From NCBI GenBank assembly GCA_921293015.1, contig OV121081.1, positions 69,643,022 through 69,707,021 on the forward strand: a stretch of 64,000 nt of DNA, read 5' to 3'. The position numbers and the translations under genes were made by a program. Positions 9,046-33,282 of this stretch are shown one piece after another; position 1 is the stretch's first letter; each line of letters starts with the position of its first letter. Under the pieces are notes generated by a model. The model was not told the origin of the DNA. It worked only from the letters and a program-made list of their open reading frames with translations, and did not search any database. The stretch comes from Phorcus lineatus. Lineage: Eukaryota; Mollusca; Gastropoda; Trochida; Trochidae.

Positions 9046-9055
9046 ATGGATGTTC
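9046..9055 (+). repeat. Left 10-bp direct repeat (target-site duplication) of the large foldback element
   Basis: ATGGATGTTC sits immediately outside the left arm and recurs exactly at 14585-14594, immediately outside the right arm. The match continues for six more bases with two transitions (CGTGCA against TGTACA), so the exact junction could be shifted by a few bases. Confidence 0.75.
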
Positions 9056-9230
9056 CGTGCAATCTGGGAATGATCACAATCTGCAGATTGTTCGCTCACA
9101 ATCTGCAGATTGTTCGAACAATCTAGGAATTTTTTTCATTCCTAGATTGTTTAAACAATCTGCAGATTGTGAGACCTGAACAATCTGGGAATGATCACAA
9201 TCTGGGAATATGCTTGAGAATTGTCTAGTT
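9056..9230. repeat. Left terminal palindromic module of the foldback element
   Basis: Three copies of the perfect 16-bp palindrome ACAATCTGCAGATTGT lie at 9076-9091, 9098-9113 and 9155-9170. They are joined by further palindromic junctions (GATTGTTCGAACAATC, GATTGTTTAAACAATC) and by ATTCCTAGATTGT and AATCTGGGAA variants. The module is the mirror image of 14430-14584. The repeated AGATTGT half-site also opens every 63-bp unit, as expected if it is a transposase-binding site (inference). Confidence 0.75.
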
Positions 9231-9261
9231 TATTTAGGTTTTTCTTTGTGTATGCATCCAA

Positions 9262-10437
9262 ATGATGGAGAATAGTTGTCAAGTCATAGATTGTGACAGG
9301 TTCATAGCTCGCCTATATATCAAACTGACTGAGTGTAGGGATCGATTCCTAGATTGTGAAGGGCTTACAGATCGACATTATATCATACTGAGAGGGATTA
9401 AGGGTCAATTCTCGGATTGTGAAGGGCTCACAGCTCGCCTATAGGTCAAGCTGAGGGACTATAGGGGTCTATTCTCAGATTGTGAAGGTTCATAGCTCAC
9501 CTTTATTTTAACTGACAGGGTATAGCAGTCTATTCTCAGATTGTGATGGGCTCATAGCTCGCCTATAAATCAAACTGAGGGAGTGTACGGCTCGATTCCT
9601 AGATTGTGAAGGGCTCACACCCCCCTTTATGTCAAACTGACGGAGTATAGGGGCCGATTCCTAGATTGTGAAAGGCTCACAGTGCGTCTATATGTCAAAC
9701 TGAGGGATTATGGCGATCTATTCTCAGATTGTGAAGGCTTATAGCTCACCTTTATTTAAACTGCGAGGGTATAGCAGTCTATTCTCAGATTGTGATGGGG
9801 TTACAGCTCGCTTTTATGTCAAACTGAGGGAGTATAGGGGCCGATTCCAAGATTGTGAAGGGCTCACAGCGCGTCTATATGTCAAACTAAGGGAGTATAG
9901 GGATCTATTCTCAGATAGTGAAGGGCTCACAGCTTGCTTTTATGTCAAACTAAGGGAGTATAGGGATCTATTCTCAGATAGTGAAGGGCTCACAGCTTGC
10001 TTTTATGTCAAACTGAGGGAGTTTAGGGATCTATTCTCAGATTGTGAAGGGCTCACAGCTCGCTTTTATGTCAAACTGAGATGATATAGCAGTCTATTCT
10101 CAGATTGTGATGGGCTCATAGCTCGCCTATATATCAAACTGAGGGAGTATAGGGGCCGATTCCAATATTGTGAAGGGCTCACAGCGCGCCTATAAATCAA
10201 ACTGACGGAGTATAGGGATCGATTCTCAGATTGTGAAGGGCTCACAGCTCGCTTTTATGTCAAACTGAGGGAGTATAGGGGTCGATTCCAAGATTGTGAA
10301 GGGCTCACAGCGCGCCTATAAATCAAACATACGGAGTATAGGGATCGATTCCAAGATTGTGCAGGGCTCATAGCTCGCCTTTATGTCAAACTGAGGGAGT
10401 ATAGGGGTCGATTCCTAGATTGTGAAAGGCATTGCGC
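9262..10437 (+). repeat. Left arm: 63-bp minisatellite, about 18 units
   Basis: AGATTGTG recurs every 63 bases (9288, 9351, 9414 and onwards to 10417). A unit reads roughly AGATTGTGAAGGGCTCACAG, then CTCGCCTATATGTCAAACTG, then AGGGAGTATAGGGGTCGATT. Units differ by a few substitutions. The period is a multiple of three, so one frame stays open (9710-10084) and would encode a 21-residue repeat. I regard that frame as a by-product of the period, not a gene. Confidence 0.85.
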
Positions 10438-10577
10438 TTGTATTTGTGTTTTATTTTGCTATGGAAGGGCTCAGTTCACATATTGTGAATATGTTGAGGT
10501 AGAAAACTAGTTTTTATATCGATTCTGCGATATTAGATTTTCATTAATCATAGTTTGCGGTAACCCGTATAACACTG

Positions 10578-11880
10578 TTTGATTTAAACATATTTATTCA
10601 TGAAAATGTACAAATCATGAATGGATTGGCCAACAAGCTCCTAGGTGCTTATTTTAAGGCCGCTCCGAAGCAATTACATATGAGAAAATATATATATACA
10701 ACTTTATGGTAGTGACACATATCTGATTGCAATCATAGCTTCATAGATAGTGGTTATGCATGAATAACATTTCGCTTGTTTGGCAGTCATTATGAAATAT
10801 CAAATCGATCAGATTTCATTATGTATTGATGAATAGAGTTCAATAACATGATGGAATCATTTAATGAGAGCGATGTGCATCCCCGTAGAACCGTTTTAAT
10901 ACCAAATCCTTTCAGATAAAAGAATGATTTCTGTCTTAATTCTATGTACTTATGGCATGTGAAGAAATAGTGGACAGCGTATTCGACTGGGTGACCACAG
11001 GAGCAGGCCGGGCTTTCGATGATATGTCTGTTAAACTTATCAGCGTTCAAGTCACTACAGTAGAGCCTGAGGCGAGAGTGGATGATCTGGCAAATTCTTG
11101 GACCATAGTTAAGATCGAAAGTAGTAGTTTTATTGCCAGGTCCTTGAACTGAATTTCTGAAACCGGATAATGTATCAATAATTTGAACGTCAGGAGTTAA
11201 GGAATTCCACAGTTTTATTGTTTCAGGTAAAAACGATCTTGCATATAACGCTGTCCTACATTTGACAGTTCGGACGGATGAATTTTCTCTGAGGTTGTAG
11301 TTATTGTTAGGTGTTGTAGGTAGAAGATTACATAGATATTGAGGCGCAATATTATTCTTCATTTTGTAGAACGTTGTCAATTTAGATATATTTCTACGCT
11401 CCGATAGGGTTTTTTGATTAGTTTCTTCATAAATACTGTTATGGCTTGTCCCGCGGACTGCTCCACAAATTGATCTCAATGCGTCTAGATTCAAGTTTTC
11501 GAGTAAAATGCACTGTTGTTTGGTGCAATTATCCCAAATGTGGCCGCAATAGTCAAAAGTTGGCAAGATGAAAGATTTATAAATAATATCCAAACTTTTG
11601 CGTGATAAACGATATTTTAGACTTCTTAAGCAGTTTATCAAAGGGCTAATTTTATTGATAATCGAGTTTATGTGAATATCCCAGTGACAATTATTTTGAA
11701 GAGTCAGACCTAAATGCTTATAGTGTTCTACTTCCTGAATTTTTTCTCCGTCCATTGTGAGATTCGGTTGAATGTTTCGGTTTATCTTTCTACTAAACTG
11801 AATTGATTTCGTTGTTTTAGGATTAAATGACACTTTCCATTTTTTTTTTTTTTTTTTCTTTTTTTTTTTTTTGGAGTTAC
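10578..11880 (-). pseudogene. LINE-A: 5'-truncated non-LTR retrotransposon, 3' part of ORF2
   Basis: A minus-strand frame (10790-11956) encodes the end of a reverse transcriptase. About residue 40 carries a W-V-FNP-KT-S pattern, typical just after the catalytic Asp-Asp motif. Then come an HYKHLG motif and a 'thumb/connection' region with P.FDYC..IWD. The C-terminus has a CCHC zinc motif (CSC...H-x4-C, about residues 315-335) and a short tail. The endonuclease and the catalytic part of the polymerase are missing. Residues before about 38 are poly-lysine and chance sequence. The 3' untranslated end reaches about 10578 and closely matches 31146-31260. Clade uncertain (CR1/jockey/I-like). It lies in the loop of the foldback element. 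Confidence 0.85.
11840..11872 (-). repeat. Interrupted poly(A) tract (poly-T on the plus strand) at the LINE-A 5' break
   Basis: T18-C-T14 on the plus strand is a 32-A tract on the strand of the LINE. It sits exactly where homology to reverse transcriptase begins, and it translates as the poly-lysine run at the start of the frame. It may be the poly(A) tail of another transcript joined by template switching, or a later A-tract expansion. Confidence 0.7.
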
Positions 11881-13380
11881 TATTTATGTAGAAGTAAGAA
11901 TTATTTCTTATATGTGTAAAATGTTTGCATATGGAAATCAATAAATAACAATTCACTATGAAAAGTATACTTAATATCTGAAAAGTTAATTACATTGAAA
12001 TTTAATTCTTCATTTTCGCTTATTTGACTCAAGTTAGGTTAATTGAGCATAATTACTATCTGTATCAACACAAAACAATAATCTCTTTTGGTTTGAATTA
12101 CTAACACTTACAAGGTACAATGAAGGAAATAGTCTCGTGATGCTAAAAGAAAGTTTCAAAAATCAAAGACAACAAACTCTGATCCTTATAATTATTGTTC
12201 ATTATGGAAACTTGATAAGTGTTACCTTTTTCCCTCATTTTCTTCCTGGACCGTGACATTGAAAGTTTTTATACGAACGATGCATAAATCGGAAAGTTAC
12301 TTAATCTTTTGAGTTTGTATATGAAAAGTTTTTAAATATATGAATTTAATTTTTTTTTATAATACTCGAACAGTTAACATTTTGTGTTGTCGTGAATAAT
12401 TAGACCAGATGTCTAGCTGGGTCTGCTTATCAAAGCAACGTGTCACTGTGTCGCGTCTCTACTCGGACTTGCGCGTAAATTCGCGTACAATCACATTAAC
12501 TTCCTCTCTGTAATTTTATGTATATATATCGCACGATATCATTATATACTTATGCAATAATGAATTGACTGGAGTAAAATGTTTTATTGCTCTTCGGTCA
12601 CACTATATGGTCAACATTTTGACACATTTTTTTTCTGTACCGTTTTTAATAGTTTCCGTTATAGCGGTTTGTGAAATTAACAAAGAAATATTTTATTTGA
12701 TTTATTTATTATCTGTTCATGATTCCATATTTTAAGAATATTTTGATGTGGATGGATTATTTACTACGCTGCAAGAAGAGTCATATAATGGCATCGTCTC
12801 TACTCCGTGCTGCGACGTTAGTGACGGGAGTGGCAAACAACTAATTTAACTGATTTAAACAATATTTAATTTCCATGAAACATATATTACACATCATTCA
12901 GAATATATATATTCAAAAAGGAAAAAGGATTAGCAAACAGGCAGCAAATGCATATATAAACGCTTCTCCTGAAACAAACATGAAACGATTAAGATATCAA
13001 GTACATTGGTGGAAATATATATTTGCAATTATTCTTACTAAAATCAAATTCATATTAAGCATTGTCAACCTCTGCATTTGGTACAGATTTAATAAAAGAG
13101 CTATAAAAATCGGTTGGTATCATTTATGAAATGATATACAGATATTATTAGGAATTCGTTAGCACTCTGTGACAAGGATTTGTCGCCGCTCAAGGTAGAT
13201 TTTAATTTTATATCGTTTTTAAAAAAGTATTGATTTGATCGGAATCCATCATAAAGTGGCAACAGGCAGGATTTGCTGACAACAATAAGTGGATTTTCAA
13301 TATGATGCTGTCATTTTCGATTTTCATTTTCCAATTTCATCTGTGTAAATATGCTTCTATACTTAATTTGACGTAAAGAC
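11881..13380. other. Loop of the foldback element, no gene recognised
   Basis: AT-rich sequence between the LINE relic and the right arm. The frame 12875-13129 (84 codons) is basic and shows no known domain. No transposase motif was found. Loop sequence of foldback elements is often captured genomic DNA. Confidence 0.5.
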
Positions 13381-14365
13381 GACCTATGAGCCCTTCACAA
13401 TCTGAGAATCGACCTCTATACCCCTCAGTTTGATATATAATTGAGCTATGAGCCCTTCACAATCTAGAAATCGATCCCTATACACCCTCAGTTTGACATT
13501 AAGGCGAGTTGTGAGCCCTTCACAAACTGGGAATCGACCCCTATACCCCTTCAGTTTGACTAATAGGCGAGCGGTGAGCCCTTCACAATCTAGGAATCGG
13601 CCCCTGTACTCCCTCAGTTCGACATATAGGCGAGTTGTGAACTCTTCACAATCTGAGAATAGACCTCTATACTCAGTCAGTTTGATTTATAGGCGAGCTA
13701 TGAGCCCTTCACAATCTAGGAATCGATCCTTATACTCCCTCAGTTTGATATATAGGCGAGTTGTGAGGCCTTCACAATCTAGGAATCGGCCCCTATAATC
13801 CCTCAGTTTGACATAAAGACGATCTATGAGCCCTTCACAATCTGAGAATCGATCCCTATACTCCGTCAGTTTGACATAAAGCCGATATGTGAGCCCTTCA
13901 CAATCTGGGAATCGACTCCTATACCCCCCAGTTTGACTTATAGGCGAGCGGTGAGCCCTTTACAATCTAAGAATCGGCCCCTGTACTCCCTCAGTTTGAC
14001 ATATAGGCGAGTTGTGAGCCCTTTACAACCTGAGAATTGACCCCTATATTCTGTCAGTTTAAATAAAGGTGAGCTATGAGCCCTTAACAATCTAGGAATC
14101 GGCCCCTATACTGCGTCAGTTTGGTTTATAGGTGAGCTGTGAGCCTTTCACAATCTAAGAATCGACTGCTATACCCTCTCAGTTTAAATAAAGGTGAGCT
14201 ATGAGCCCTTCACAATCTAGGAATCAACTCTTACACCCCCTAAGTTTGACATAAAGACGAGCTGAGAGTCCATTACAATCTGGGAATCGGCCCCCATACA
14301 CCCTCATTTTGAGAAAGAGACAAGCTGATTGCTCATCACAACCTAGGAATCGATCCCTATACTTG
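13381..14365 (-). repeat. Right arm: 63-bp minisatellite in opposite orientation, about 15-16 units
   Basis: CACAATCT recurs about every 63 bases from 13396 to 14335. Units read roughly GAGCCCTTCACAATCTAGGA, then ATCGACCCCTATACTCCCTC, then AGTTTGACATATAGGCGAGC: the reverse complement of the left-arm unit. An open frame across 13448-13798 encodes 21-residue repeats for the same arithmetic reason as on the left. Confidence 0.85.
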
Positions 14366-14429
14366 CTTAATAGAGAAACCTTAATAAGCTAGATAATTCC
14401 TACTTTATAATGATGAAAATACTACTAAA

Positions 14430-14584
14430 ACACAAATTCCTAGATTGTGATCATTCCCAGATTGTTCAGGTCGCACAATCTGCAGATTGTTTAAACAATC
14501 TAGGAATTCCTAGATTGTGAGCAAACAATCTGCAGATTGTTCGAACAATCTGCAGATTGTGATATACCCCAGATTGTTCGTAAC
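14430..14584. repeat. Right terminal palindromic module of the foldback element
   Basis: Mirror image of the left module. ACAATCTGCAGATTGT occurs at 14475-14490, 14525-14540 and 14545-14560, with the same TTTAAA and TTCGAA junctions and flanking CCTAGATTGTGATCATTCCC. The order and spacing of the three palindromes are reversed relative to the left end. Confidence 0.75.
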
Positions 14585-14594
14585 ATGGATGTTC
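14585..14594 (+). repeat. Right 10-bp direct repeat of the large foldback element
   Basis: ATGGATGTTC, identical to 9046-9055; see the left copy. Confidence 0.75.
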
Positions 14595-17409
14595 TGTACA
14601 ACACGTGGTAACATTCTCAGTTATTCTTGTCAGACACAATCATCGCGCGAGGTCCAAAATAAATTGATACATAAAATTTGGAACGAGACAACCATTGACA
14701 CCTACTCATAAAATTCCCAGACAAAACTGACCTGATACACTTCAATGAATGTGTCTCATTGTTACCAAAAATATCCAATCGAATTCATAAATCATTTCCT
14801 CGGGTAACATTTTATTTTAGAGCGAATATATCATATAAAAGTAGTGATTTTATGTATGTCATAATTTTGAGTTTAGCTATTGCGAATTTTAATTTCATCT
14901 CATGATAATTTAGTTAGGTCCCTGCAAAAATATCTAAACCTCTAGTTAGTATCATAACAATGATATGCAAATTGATGGAATTTCTAACAATCTATAGCAT
15001 ATAAGGGTCGCATGGCTTTAGTTTGTACATTAATATCTATGTATACCAAAATCAGATTGTTAAGTTTTTATGAATCCCAAGGAAACTACATAATTCACCC
15101 ACACGTTGCGCTTGTATATACAGTAAAAGCTGAAATACGTCAGCTGTTAATTTTGGCCAGTGTATTGAAATGATAATTTACAAAATTATAATGTATTGTT
15201 ATAAAACAATAATATAAAAAAGTATAATGTATTGTTGTGATGATTAAACAACCATTTTTGTCACATTTCGTGCTTGATTTGCATCTCAATAGCTTGTAAA
15301 TGTAAAAACGTTTCTCTTGTTTTCACCTGAAGTAATCAACTTCAGTTATTTTCTTATGTCAGTCATAGTTGCTCTGAAATCGTCAAACACATGTAAAACG
15401 TTAGCTTCACATTTTGAACGTCAATGAAGAGTGAGGCCTTTCACATCACTTTATACAAATTACTACTAGAGGATAAAAAATGTCTACTCTCAGAGAAAAT
15501 GATTAGGAATGGGAGACTGCAAACTTCGAGCGTTCGGGATTGGAGGGAAAATCAATTTAACAGCTCCAGAAAACTGGCCGAGTGGCAACATTTTAGAACC
15601 GTATTAGATAACGGTGATGTTTATATCACGTATAAGTGTCTACGTTCAATCACTCTGAGTAATCGACTACACAAAGAATTATTCCGAGACACCATCACAT
15701 TGTTATTAATTGAGACAGAAGTTACTAAGTATTATGTTTGATAAATATTTGAATGAAGCAACAGTTTATTTTCAAAAATGTTCAAGGTCAAATGTAAACT
15801 ATTTCGATTTCAAGAGTATGTTTTGGATAAATACTAACAAATAGTAACACCTTTTTAACCAATTTTTTGTTTCTTATGTTTGACCCATTGAATAGTCAAT
15901 ACCTTGCATTGTTATCTATATTGTTTAACTTTGAAAACAAATTTCCAGCGAAAATATTTTGTCTACGATTTATCTGAATAACGTTAATTACTTGTCTGTT
16001 CATAACCGAAGTCTTTTCTTCTGGCGCTGTTGTTACCAATTTCACTCAAGTTGATACACATATCCATTGTTATTTTGCGTCAAATATTTAGTTTTTCTTA
16101 GGCGTGGTGGAGCAGGTATTGAATTGGTATCAGTTGAAGCATATTTGCATTTGAAGCATATAAAATCAATATTTAATAGACTGTCGTCTCTTCAGAATGA
16201 TAAGTCTTTATTATTATTTAAACACAGCCAGCTATAGAGATCCCTATATTTCTACATTTGAAGAGAATGATGTCTTGGAGTTTGGAAATTTCTGTCCTTA
16301 TAATGTATCGGAATAATTTAGATAAATAAGATAGATATGAATATAAGAAATATTGAGTACATATTTTAGTCGGGAATTTGAGGGATATTTTGTATTCTTA
16401 ATATTCCCTCTGTACAAATGCACTCAAACTTAGCAGTAATTGTTGCAAAGATGAACTACTGCATTGAGACTTTCCACCAAAATTCCAGTGAACCAATTAA
16501 ACAAACTTGGCCTTGAGTTTCACCATGTCGGGGAAACAAGCATTTTGGAACATCTCACAGGGAAGTATGACACTAAATGAAGAGACAGGGATTGAGAAAA
16601 GAGGAAAAAGAAAAGTAACTTGTAATATGCAAAAACAGAAACAGGTTTGGAAATAAGATGTTTCTATCATATATTTCCGTATTGCAAATTATCATGATGT
16701 TTCCCAGAAATGCTTGAGATCATTCATGACTGATAATGCAACTGTTAATCGTTAAAATAGTTTACTTTGCATCACTGATAGATTTTGGATCACACTATCT
16801 GCAACTGAAAAATTGATGTATTTGTTTGGTGAAATGAATTGTAGGATTCGACCGTACACACTTAGTCAGGCAACGAATGAATACACAGTTTACCGACACG
16901 ACAACCAGATTTCTTTTAAAAATCGACAAGTTTTTAATTTCAAAAAAACATTCAGTACTCCATTGTTCACTCGATTACAATTACAATATTGAAAACAAAA
17001 TGATACGTTTTGTGATGGATCAAATCAGTGGTACGTGTCTTGTCTCTACGGTATGTCTAATAACTGTCACTTGTATTTTTCATCCTTGTAAAAGTAAAAG
17101 TGAAATTGAATTAATACAAAATTAAATCCCAAACTATTTTCAGAAGCCAGACAGAAATATTTGATTTCCTTGATTATGCCAGTACGTGGTAATTGCTTTT
17201 TTTTTAAAAATTGAATAACAGCCAAAGTTTTATGTTTTACTTAGAGGACACGCCATTTGGTACATCCCTTGTTGATGATGAAAATGAATCTATAAATATA
17301 GTTGTCTACTAGCTCTAAAAATAAATAAAAGGCAAAAGCCAACAACAAAATCAAAAATAGGATTCGGGCCTTCAATTTGAGTTATCTAAGAATTAAAATC
17401 ATTCAAACG

Positions 17410-30966: not shown

Positions 30967-31145
30967 GACAGGGCAAATGCCACCCGGACAAATGCCACCC
31001 GGACATAATCCACCCGGACAATTGCCACCAGGACAAATGCCACCTAGGACAAATGCCACCTAGGACAAATGCCACCTAGTTTTTTTTAATATTACAAGAC
31101 AAAAATAAAGTTATGTTTTTAATATTACATGAAGCAATATATACC

Positions 31146-31700
31146 TTTGATTTAAACATATTTTATTCATGAAATAATACATGAACGAATTGGTCAACAA
31201 GCTCCGAAGAGCTTATATTAAGGCCGCTCCAATGCAATTTCATATATACAGATATACAAACAGATGTAAGATATACGTCAAATCATAATTCAAATTCAAA
31301 GATATATACAGAGATAATGCATTTCTACCAATTTCTACCAATTTGGCAGTCATTATTTTAAAGTGTTATTGGGGAATTTTAAATCGATCGGATTTAGTGA
31401 TATAATTATGAATAGACTTTAATAATAAAGTTTGTTCATTGATTGTGAGCAATGCACATCCCCGTAGTTCCGTATTGATAGAAAATCCTTTCGAAAAGAA
31501 GAATGATTGATTTCTTAAGTGTATATACTTTTGGCATATGGAAAAATAGTGTACTGCATTTTCGGTCGGGTGACCGCATGAGCATGCAGGGCTGTCAATG
31601 ATATATCTGTTAAATTTTGGCATTCAAATCACTACAATGAAGCCTGAGGCGAGAATGAATAATCTGACAAATTCTTGACCCAAAATTAAGAAAGGAAACA
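31146..31700 (-). pseudogene. LINE-A-like 3' fragment, second copy
   Basis: The minus-strand frame 31366-31623 encodes the same C-terminus as LINE-A (FNRYIIDSPACSCGHP, then H-x4-C). The preceding residues (RICQIIHSRLRL in LINE-A) are found in another frame just upstream, so there is a frameshift near 31618-31625. Homology fades at about 31700. The 3' untranslated sequence matches LINE-A closely down to the terminal GTTTAAATCAAA (minus strand, about 31146). The copy is severely 5'-truncated. It sits 67 bp from the left arm of the second foldback element. Confidence 0.8.
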
Positions 31701-32783
31701 TATCAATGTAGATACTTACAAATACCGTAAAAAATGTGTTCCTTATAACGTCACGATTGCCAGGTATATCAAGTATTAGTAAATCTAGTAAACTTATATC
31801 TTGCGTGTTCGCTATCATCCTAATTGTATGATGATACAGCACTATCTTCAATGAATAAGAGAATAAACAATAATAAGAATGATGTTCGTTATAAATGCCC
31901 TCATCCATACATCTCATGTATGTATTTTTAAGATTATTGAAAAATAATAAATTTATATTCTTTGAATACACAGAAATGAACGTAACTAAAATAACTTTCA
32001 ATGAGTGTCCAAATAGAAGCAAAGTTGCAAATCCGTCTGCTTGGCAACAGCAGTTGTTTTTAAGGATCAAACCAAAAGTCACCATGACCTTAAAAATCAA
32101 CCTCCAATCACAATTAACCAATTATGATTTTGTATATTAGGAGTAACAATCTACACAATATACCCTCATCTTGCAATATACGAGTCTGCAAATCGACAAA
32201 ACTGTCATATCGATGCAAATATTGACATATGTAAACCACATCATTGTTTTATGGCTTTCATTTGTGTTTCATAATGATCCTTATTTTCAAATTTCCAAAA
32301 TTTAGTTATGTGGTAAATATAATATTGAATACAATAGCCAAACCAAATATTGTTTCTATCCATTAGTGAAGAATAGAAAAAAGTATTAGCAAATTGAACT
32401 ATTTTAAAAATAGATCAAACCAGAACAGAGGAGCCAAGTCCACAGAACTATCAACAACATTGTTAACAAAAGTAGGAGGTGTTTTATACCAGCCAAACCA
32501 AGTGTATGGCGTCACTACATCTAAAGATTACTAGTATATCTCTGAATGTTATGTCATTTAGTTTGATTATAAGGGGTTAGCACTTCCTTAAAAGAACTAT
32601 TAGATATATATATATATTGAACATGGAATCAACCGAAGTTGTAGATTAATTTTAGTTATTGAGATAAACTCAGTTTTAATTTTTAGTGAGATTGAGAAAA
32701 AGAACAGTTCTGTGTTTCATATATTATGTTCAACTAGTAATTTCATGAATATTATCTTTTTTTCTTCTTTTTTTAAGATATTG
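31701..32783. other. Loop of the second foldback element, no gene recognised
   Basis: A long hydrophobic minus-strand frame (31624-32121, 165 codons) crosses into the LINE in the wrong frame, so it is at least partly accidental. No transposase motif. Confidence 0.45.
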
Positions 32784-33282
32784 GGTGGCATTTGTCCTAG
32801 GTGGCTTTTGTCTGGGTGGCATTTGTCCTAGGTGGCATTTGTCCTAGGTGGCATTTGTCCTGGTGGCAATTGTCCGGGTGGGTTATGTCCGGGTGGCATT
32901 TGTCCGGGTGGCATTTGTCCTAGACCCGTAATGATCAAGTGTGTGCGTTCAAGCGTTACAGTGTATAATATTGAACCTTACTTCAATAAAATTAAAACAG
33001 CCTGTTTAGAAAATTCCCTTCTGATTCTAATTAAAACAAATATTTTAAAAGCTACAGGTTAAAACAAACACTTGATATTGATAAATATAATAATGTTAAT
33101 AGTAAAGTGACAATGTAATTTCAGGAATATGATAGTAGAAGGTATCAAAGATACTAGTATGATGTATTACTTTTTTTTAAGGAAAATCTTCATGCTTGTC
33201 TATTCTTGAAGGTTCTGAGAAGAATTACCATAAGATGATTAACCTTGCATTCTTCCACTCTTGCCTACTCTTGCCACCAGGA

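Follow-up and report, generated by a model that had tools for sequence, protein, structure and literature searches.

The stretch of DNA analysed here, called the window, comprises 64,000 nucleotides of the trochid gastropod Phorcus lineatus (contig OV121081.1 of assembly GCA_921293015.1, positions 69,643,022 to 69,707,021). It carries at positions 9051-14585 a recently mobile DNA transposon without recognisable gene, in which mirrored arms of repeated units flank a loop. From its sequence features, we consider that this element is best explained as a foldback element that is itself non-autonomous and is mobilised by an integrase transposase resembling that of Ginger2, with a probability of roughly 0.64. 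A previous reading of the window from its letters alone (the sequence-only reading) had proposed a foldback-type transposon, and this is borne out by repeated arms, fixed ends, target site duplications (TSDs) and dispersed copies. On the other hand, its 10-bp TSD had pointed to an affinity with the FB/TU type, whereas four observations indicate a different class of transposase: the 4-bp TSD, the target RTR[N4]YAY, the TGTT termini and the presence of integrase-type transposons in this genome.

Termini and target site preference of the foldback element

The sequence-only reading expected other copies to end at the same points, and they do: in those of the compared loci (L001-L045) that include the TGTT terminus, the likeness to the window element extends no further than this terminus. 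The bounds of the element itself were originally placed at 9046-14594, bracketed by the 10-bp direct repeat ATGGATGTTC, and had to be corrected to 9051-14585. This repeat breaks down into a chance A, the TSD TGGA and TGTTC, the last being the first bases of the element on the left and plain flanking sequence on the right. An exact 4-bp TSD was found in 20 of the 22 copies with paired ends, compared with 36 of 462 mismatched pairings, and the complete copies L105 (TGTA) and L106 (TACA) raise this to 22 of 24. In L011 and L012, the two copies of the TSD differ by one base. No match over 5-10 bp was seen among the 22 paired copies, and this comparison, which shows 4 bp, rules out a 10-bp TSD.

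The target of the family is RTR[TATA-like 4 bp]YAY. Among 51 distinct end flanks, which include both ends of some insertions, T stands at -6 in 48, A or G at -5 in 50, G or A at -7 in 50 and A at -1 in 41, and the commonest bases at the four places of the TSD spell TATA. In a larger set of 73 distinct end flanks, RTR at -7 to -5 was present in 66, against a background of 8% in the window. The 4-bp TSD had been read from the first copies before the description of Ginger2 was consulted, and the target motif was counted afterwards. The insertion site of the window element, GTA[TGGA]TGT, fits the motif in its left flank.

Dispersal and recent movement of the family

The search for copies covered one genome (958 Mb in 74 contigs). 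The palindrome ACAATCTGCAGATTGT occurs 2149 times in it (reversed control, 3), and the 19-bp end B is present in 326 exact copies (170 + 156; reversed control, 0). The dispersal is that of the foldback class, namely scattered copies with fixed ends and TSDs. Complete copies measure 135 bp (L105), 581 bp (L014), 5.5 kb (the window element) and about 10 kb (L052 with L017), and the armless 135-bp copy, the 5.5-kb copy and the 10-kb copy each have an exact 4-bp TSD. The smallest one (L105:114-248) is built entirely of end-module sequence, is flanked left and right by TGTA, and represents a natural minimal element. The arms of L052 are expanded, and no frame of at least 100 amino acids was seen in it.

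Arms recur beyond the window locus, as the sequence-only reading had anticipated. Tandem arms were also detected by Tandem Repeats Finder (TRF) in copies L005, L006 and L008-L013. Moreover, when 40 further copies of end B, drawn in list order from 100 of the 326, were sampled 250-450 bp inside, 38 of them held element sequence at the arm position, the other two being the 135-bp mini copy L105 and L106, a normal copy with an insertion.

Old, diverged copies occur in the family, such as L048, with array stretches that are 63-80% alike. At the other extreme, the sister copy L046 (contig C25, 5205 bp) aligns to the window element with eight gaps and with 19 mismatches in 5150 aligned bases; it is bracketed by a TATA TSD of its own and carries the same retrotransposon insert. 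Its right arm is 377 bp (about 6 units) shorter than that of the window element. It is evident that the youngest movement of the family is recent and that the arms change between copies by whole units.

Integrase-type elements in the same genome

The genome was also searched with a KRBA2-like integrase segment of 162 amino acids, and 150 of the 1066 candidates were scored. Identity reached 79%, with dozens of matches above 60% among those scored. One of the elements found in this way, L131, looks complete, with a 533-amino-acid frame between 219-bp terminal inverted repeats (TIRs) that are 98.6% alike. All four frames analysed (L127 and L129-L131) gave matches to rve (E 2e-7 to 5e-6), at 27.2-31.6 bits, which is just below the curated cut-off of 32.6, and three of the four gave matches to H2C2, above its cut-off in one. 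Among solved structures, the integrase of prototype foamy virus comes closest to the L131 frame (PFV; E 1.1e-15).

These elements start with TGTTACAG (TGTTAC), and the end TGTTACAGT was found in 17 of 25 integrase loci, 20 ends in all. At the 20 distinct ends, the TSD is TATA in 19, and T at -6 and A or G at -5 are present in all 20. The TSDs are TATA/TATA in L127, L128 and L130, for which the end search placed both ends within the locus. Their TIRs hold inverted modules that differ between subfamilies. Elements L127 and L129-L131 resemble the foldback in their TGTTAC start, 4-bp TSD, TR[TATA] target and repeated inverted TIR modules, and the L129 group also in the half-site CAATCT/AGATTG, which forms the core of the site repeated in the foldback itself. 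Per 165 bp, this half-site occurs 6 times in the ends of L129, L140 and L143, once in L130 and not at all in L127, L131 and L146, compared with 11 times in each foldback end, repeats within one TIR being non-independent events. On the other hand, the integrase elements are about 2.2-2.9 kb long where both ends were seen, contain a frame of 520-544 amino acids and lack 63-bp arms, and their ends are not alignable with the foldback ends at significance beyond TGTTAC and the half-sites.

As a separate observation, ten integrase-type frames follow one another at a constant step of 2393 bp at C9:13846869-13868870, forming a tandem array of integrase elements.

Arms, palindromes and half-sites of the window element

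The window element has the structure of the foldback class, that is, long inverted tandem-repeat arms around a loop (Table 1). The two opposed arms of 63-bp units described in the sequence-only reading were recovered by TRF as arrays of 18.2 and 15.9 copies in opposite orientation, and they pair as inverted repeats of up to 536 nucleotides with 80% complementarity. Units lie at a distance of 0.21 when taken from different arms and of 0.20 and 0.22 when taken from the same arm, which indicates a single pool of units common to both arms.

Outside the arrays, each end module (about 165 bp) contains three exact ACAATCTGCAGATTGT palindromes. The number is as originally proposed, but the supposed mirror spacing is approximate only, the palindromes starting 26, 48 and 105 from the outer end in end A and 26, 46 and 96 in end B. 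Palindromes with arms of at least 6 number 5 in module A and 6 in module B, whereas shuffled sequences gave means of 0.2 and 0.1, with maxima of 3 and 2.

In the element, 49 copies of the heptamer AGATTGT/ACAATCT were counted, while 300 first-order Markov shuffles gave a mean of 1.4 and a maximum of 6. These copies are distributed as 28 in the arms, 21 outside the arms towards the ends and none in the loop, and the remaining window has 15 per 58,456 bases. AGATTGT is the most conserved 7-mer of the 63-bp unit (0.97 against a mean of 0.87), and 28 of the 36 units, complete or partial, have it in exact form (15 of 19 in the left arm, 13 of 17 in the right). Most units, therefore, carry one half-site, and not every unit as had been claimed.

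Table 1. Positions of the foldback element and its parts in the window.
Feature	Positions	Strand	Remark
Left TSD, TGGA	9047-9050		4 bp
Whole element, TGTTCC...GTAACA, 5535 bp	9051-14585	+	ends common to other copies
End module A: TGTTCCGTGCAATCTGGG and palindromes, ACAATCTGCAGATTGT at 9076, 9098 and 9155	9051-9215	+	
Left arm: about 18 tandem 63-bp units, best conserved around AGATTGTGA	9288-10430	+	
Loop	10431-13366	+	own core is 10431-10581 and 11873-13366
Truncated non-long-terminal-repeat (non-LTR) retrotransposon insert in the loop	10582-11872	-	
Right arm: about 16 tandem 63-bp units, inverted	13367-14363	-	
End module B: TGTTACGAACAATCTGGGG and palindromes at 14475, 14525 and 14545	14421-14585	-	
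Right TSD, TGGA	14586-14589		4 bp

Beyond the right TSD, the flank at 14590-14613 reads TGTTCTGTACAACACGTGGTAACA, with an end-A-like start (10 of 12 bases by eye) and an end-B-like finish. This flank is perhaps an old footprint or a remnant of another copy.

Discussion

In the mechanism that we propose, a transposase encoded elsewhere would recognise both palindrome-rich ends (TGTTMCG...CAATCTGGG), cut at TG..CA and join the ends with a 4-bp stagger into RTR[TATA-like]YAY sites, presumably by cut-and-paste chemistry. The likeliest enzyme would be an integrase-fold (Ginger2-like) transposase, of the kind for which the same genome has autonomous-looking elements. AGATTGT is its putative binding site, and the 63-bp units, with 49 half-sites in the element as a whole, would probably provide additional docking sites and so enrich the transposase locally. 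This role of the arms is modelled on the proposal for Galileo (PMC3688188).

Ginger2 elements are described with a 4-bp TSD, TGTNR ends, the target RTATAY and an H2C2 finger with a DDE core, and they include a non-autonomous derivative of 252 bp, Ginger2-1N1_NV (PMC2836005). The foldback resembles Ginger2/TDD in its 4-bp TSD, TGT...ACA ends and R[TATA]Y preference, the last in a relaxed form (PMC2836005). It differs in having no gene, a relaxed TSD sequence and TGTTC at end A; the TIRs of Ginger2/TDD listed in Table 2 of its description are 45-297 bp long, and tandem arms are not mentioned in the parts consulted here (PMC2836005). An H2C2 finger with a DDE integrase was not found in the foldback core (L010), as expected if the element is non-autonomous; a six-frame reading of this core with X at stops gave no Pfam family at E up to 1, and the frame of the window loop, which is mostly insert, gave no Pfam match at E up to 0.001. 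The foldback was not filed as a member of Ginger2, because no integrase gene was seen and one end breaks the TGTNR rule.

Several observations weigh against the integrase reading. The TGTTC of end A lies outside the strict TGTNR rule, while the TGTTA of end B fits it, and the right flank of the window element is TGT instead of YAY. The full RTR is present at only 14 of the 20 integrase ends, and TATA itself at 18 of 73 foldback end flanks compared with 19 of 20 integrase ends. Strict palindromes (arms of at least 6) were found in 2 of 7 integrase ends, compared with 5 and 6 palindromes in the foldback ends, and neither of the two exceeds its shuffles (L127, 5 with a shuffled maximum of 5; L131, 2 with a shuffled maximum of 2), the inverted modules of the other five being imperfect. 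Thus, the strict count lends no support to palindrome-built TIRs in most integrase ends, which lowers our confidence in an integrase enzyme. BLAST of the foldback end modules against the 25 integrase loci gave a best E of 0.71 and, since repeats within one TIR are not independent, the homology between the two kinds of ends is suggestive only. Moreover, these loci were selected for their resemblance to the KRBA2-like query, so that the relevant subfamily may be absent from them. Finally, none of the long copies, the odd contexts of end A, the sampled copies of end B or the integrase loci yielded a transposase gene flanked by the ends of the foldback.

With regard to these places, the long copies L009 and, by its core fragments, L008 are broken up by other sequence including reverse-transcriptase-type frames. 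End A adjoins unexpected sequence at six places genome-wide, and visual inspection of frames of at least 90 amino acids at five of them revealed no transposase; L047 and L048 match the arrays, while L049-L051 were assessed visually from their initial sequence. Matches to rve (PF00665) numbered 1313 candidates, of which 150 were scored and 20 inspected; 15 of these 20 have frames that are Gypsy-like by eye, and the other five showed no frame. Because the foldback is laxer in its TSD than the integrase elements, its own partner is likely to belong to a distinct integrase subfamily, which is probably not among the loci examined.

We tentatively propose, at slightly less than even odds, that these foldbacks belong to the integrase (Ginger2-like) lineage and that their minisatellite arms, with dozens of half-sites, act like an antenna that attracts a transposase similar to retroviral integrases. 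Galileo, a foldback of the P superfamily, differs from it in its THAP, P-type transposase and in its TSD of 7 bp. The likeness lies in the long repeated arms with extra transposase-binding sites, and the arms of Galileo have been proposed to give binding specificity (PMC3688188). With regard to the arms only, it is conceivable, though we hold it to be the lesser chance, that they are decoys or neutral passengers rather than docking aids, which would be compatible with an integrase enzyme. The 135-bp armless copy L105 at a perfect TSD suggests that the arms may be unneeded, unless they were lost after insertion, but in 38 of the 40 sampled copies the arm position is occupied by element sequence, and conservation within the 63-bp unit is highest at AGATTGT.

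As for the enzyme, a transposase of another kind that produces 4-bp TSDs (Sola1/2, AcademX, PHIS or the unclassified 'DNA4') might drive the foldback, its likeness to the integrase elements being convergent, and we regard this as unlikely, yet worth serious consideration. Sola elements also make 4-bp TSDs. Similarly, TSDs of up to 4 bp in Harbinger/ISL2EU relatives and of 3-4 bp in AcademX indicate that this length is not confined to Ginger2 (PMC10045372), and 'DNA4' families are listed in an oyster (PMC8268682). Such an enzyme would also agree with the fact that no transposase-bearing copy with the foldback's ends was found. On the other hand, the TGT...ACA termini, the TR[TATA] target and the repeated inverted modules are as in the integrase elements of the genome, and the half-site is common to the foldback and the L129 group.

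A foldback of the FB/Mutator type would share the arms of tandem units and the loop, as in FB, TU and Tetris, but the TSDs of Mutator/FB elements (Mutator-like elements, MULEs) are about 8-11 bp long. Tetris, copies of which were found without transposase, has the same order of end, tandem-repeat arm and loop and was assigned to Mutator on the basis of its 8-10 bp TSDs (PMC4079207), FB and TU being compared by description only. In contrast, 22 of the 24 copies examined here have TSDs of 4 bp, and a TSD of 8-10 bp was looked for and not encountered, which leaves this type very improbable. Even less credible is an inverted minisatellite raised by local duplication or satellite seeding without any transposon, since this might account for the whole-unit differences and the diverged tandem repeats of the arms but not for the fixed ends, the TSDs and a near-identical copy elsewhere with the same nested insert. 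A satellite carrier of the Helitron type was ruled out by the TSD and the fixed inverted ends. Helitron-type elements have neither TSD nor TIR.

The integrase reading matters for the origin of the foldback architecture. It is mostly with transposases of the Mutator-like and P-like kinds that foldback arms have been associated (PMC4079207, PMC3688188). If an integrase-type enzyme moves the window element, this architecture arose in a further transposase class, which would suggest that arrays of binding sites are selected for rather than being one enzyme's quirk. Badal et al. 2013, cited in PMC4079207, reportedly describes one exception to the mostly Mutator/P placement of foldbacks. We found no report of an integrase-type foldback in the open-access literature (Repbase and subscription journals were outside the scope of this search), nor any open-access paper with the element's own sequence strings. 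The family should offer a natural series for testing arm function (135 bp without arms, 5.5 kb and 10 kb) in a genome that also has long open integrase-type frames.

Loop, retrotransposon insert and neighbouring structures

The sequence-only reading gave a loop of 2.9 kb, which agrees with the measured 2936 bp, of which 1291 bp (about 44%) prove to be the retrotransposon insert. The insert is not in copies L005, L006, L010 and L011, and is present in L022, L023, L024 and L046, while L025 extends only about 20 bases into it. One end of the insert matches sequence adjoining a 601-amino-acid reverse-transcriptase frame in L009, and we take the insert to be CR1-like. Its presence in copies at separate locations shows that the element already contained it when it moved, as DNA. 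L022 represents the end of L046, with L023 as its probable tandem duplicate: the two element ends (C25:687606-693839) lie about 6 kb apart with the same flank, which probably reflects the tandem duplication of a segment, either real or an effect of assembly.

A second foldback-like structure is present in the window at 30969-32923, where 15-bp units at 30969-31076 are inverted with respect to those at 32784-32923. Sea urchin TU elements have 15-bp units. By eye, the loop of this structure includes a stretch resembling the retrotransposon insert of the main element. Moreover, inside another copy of the family (L020:1-571), there is a stretch of other sequence in which short repeats like GTGACTTTTTTTCC occur together with a short frame that presumably resembles the C-terminus of Mutator-type transposases.

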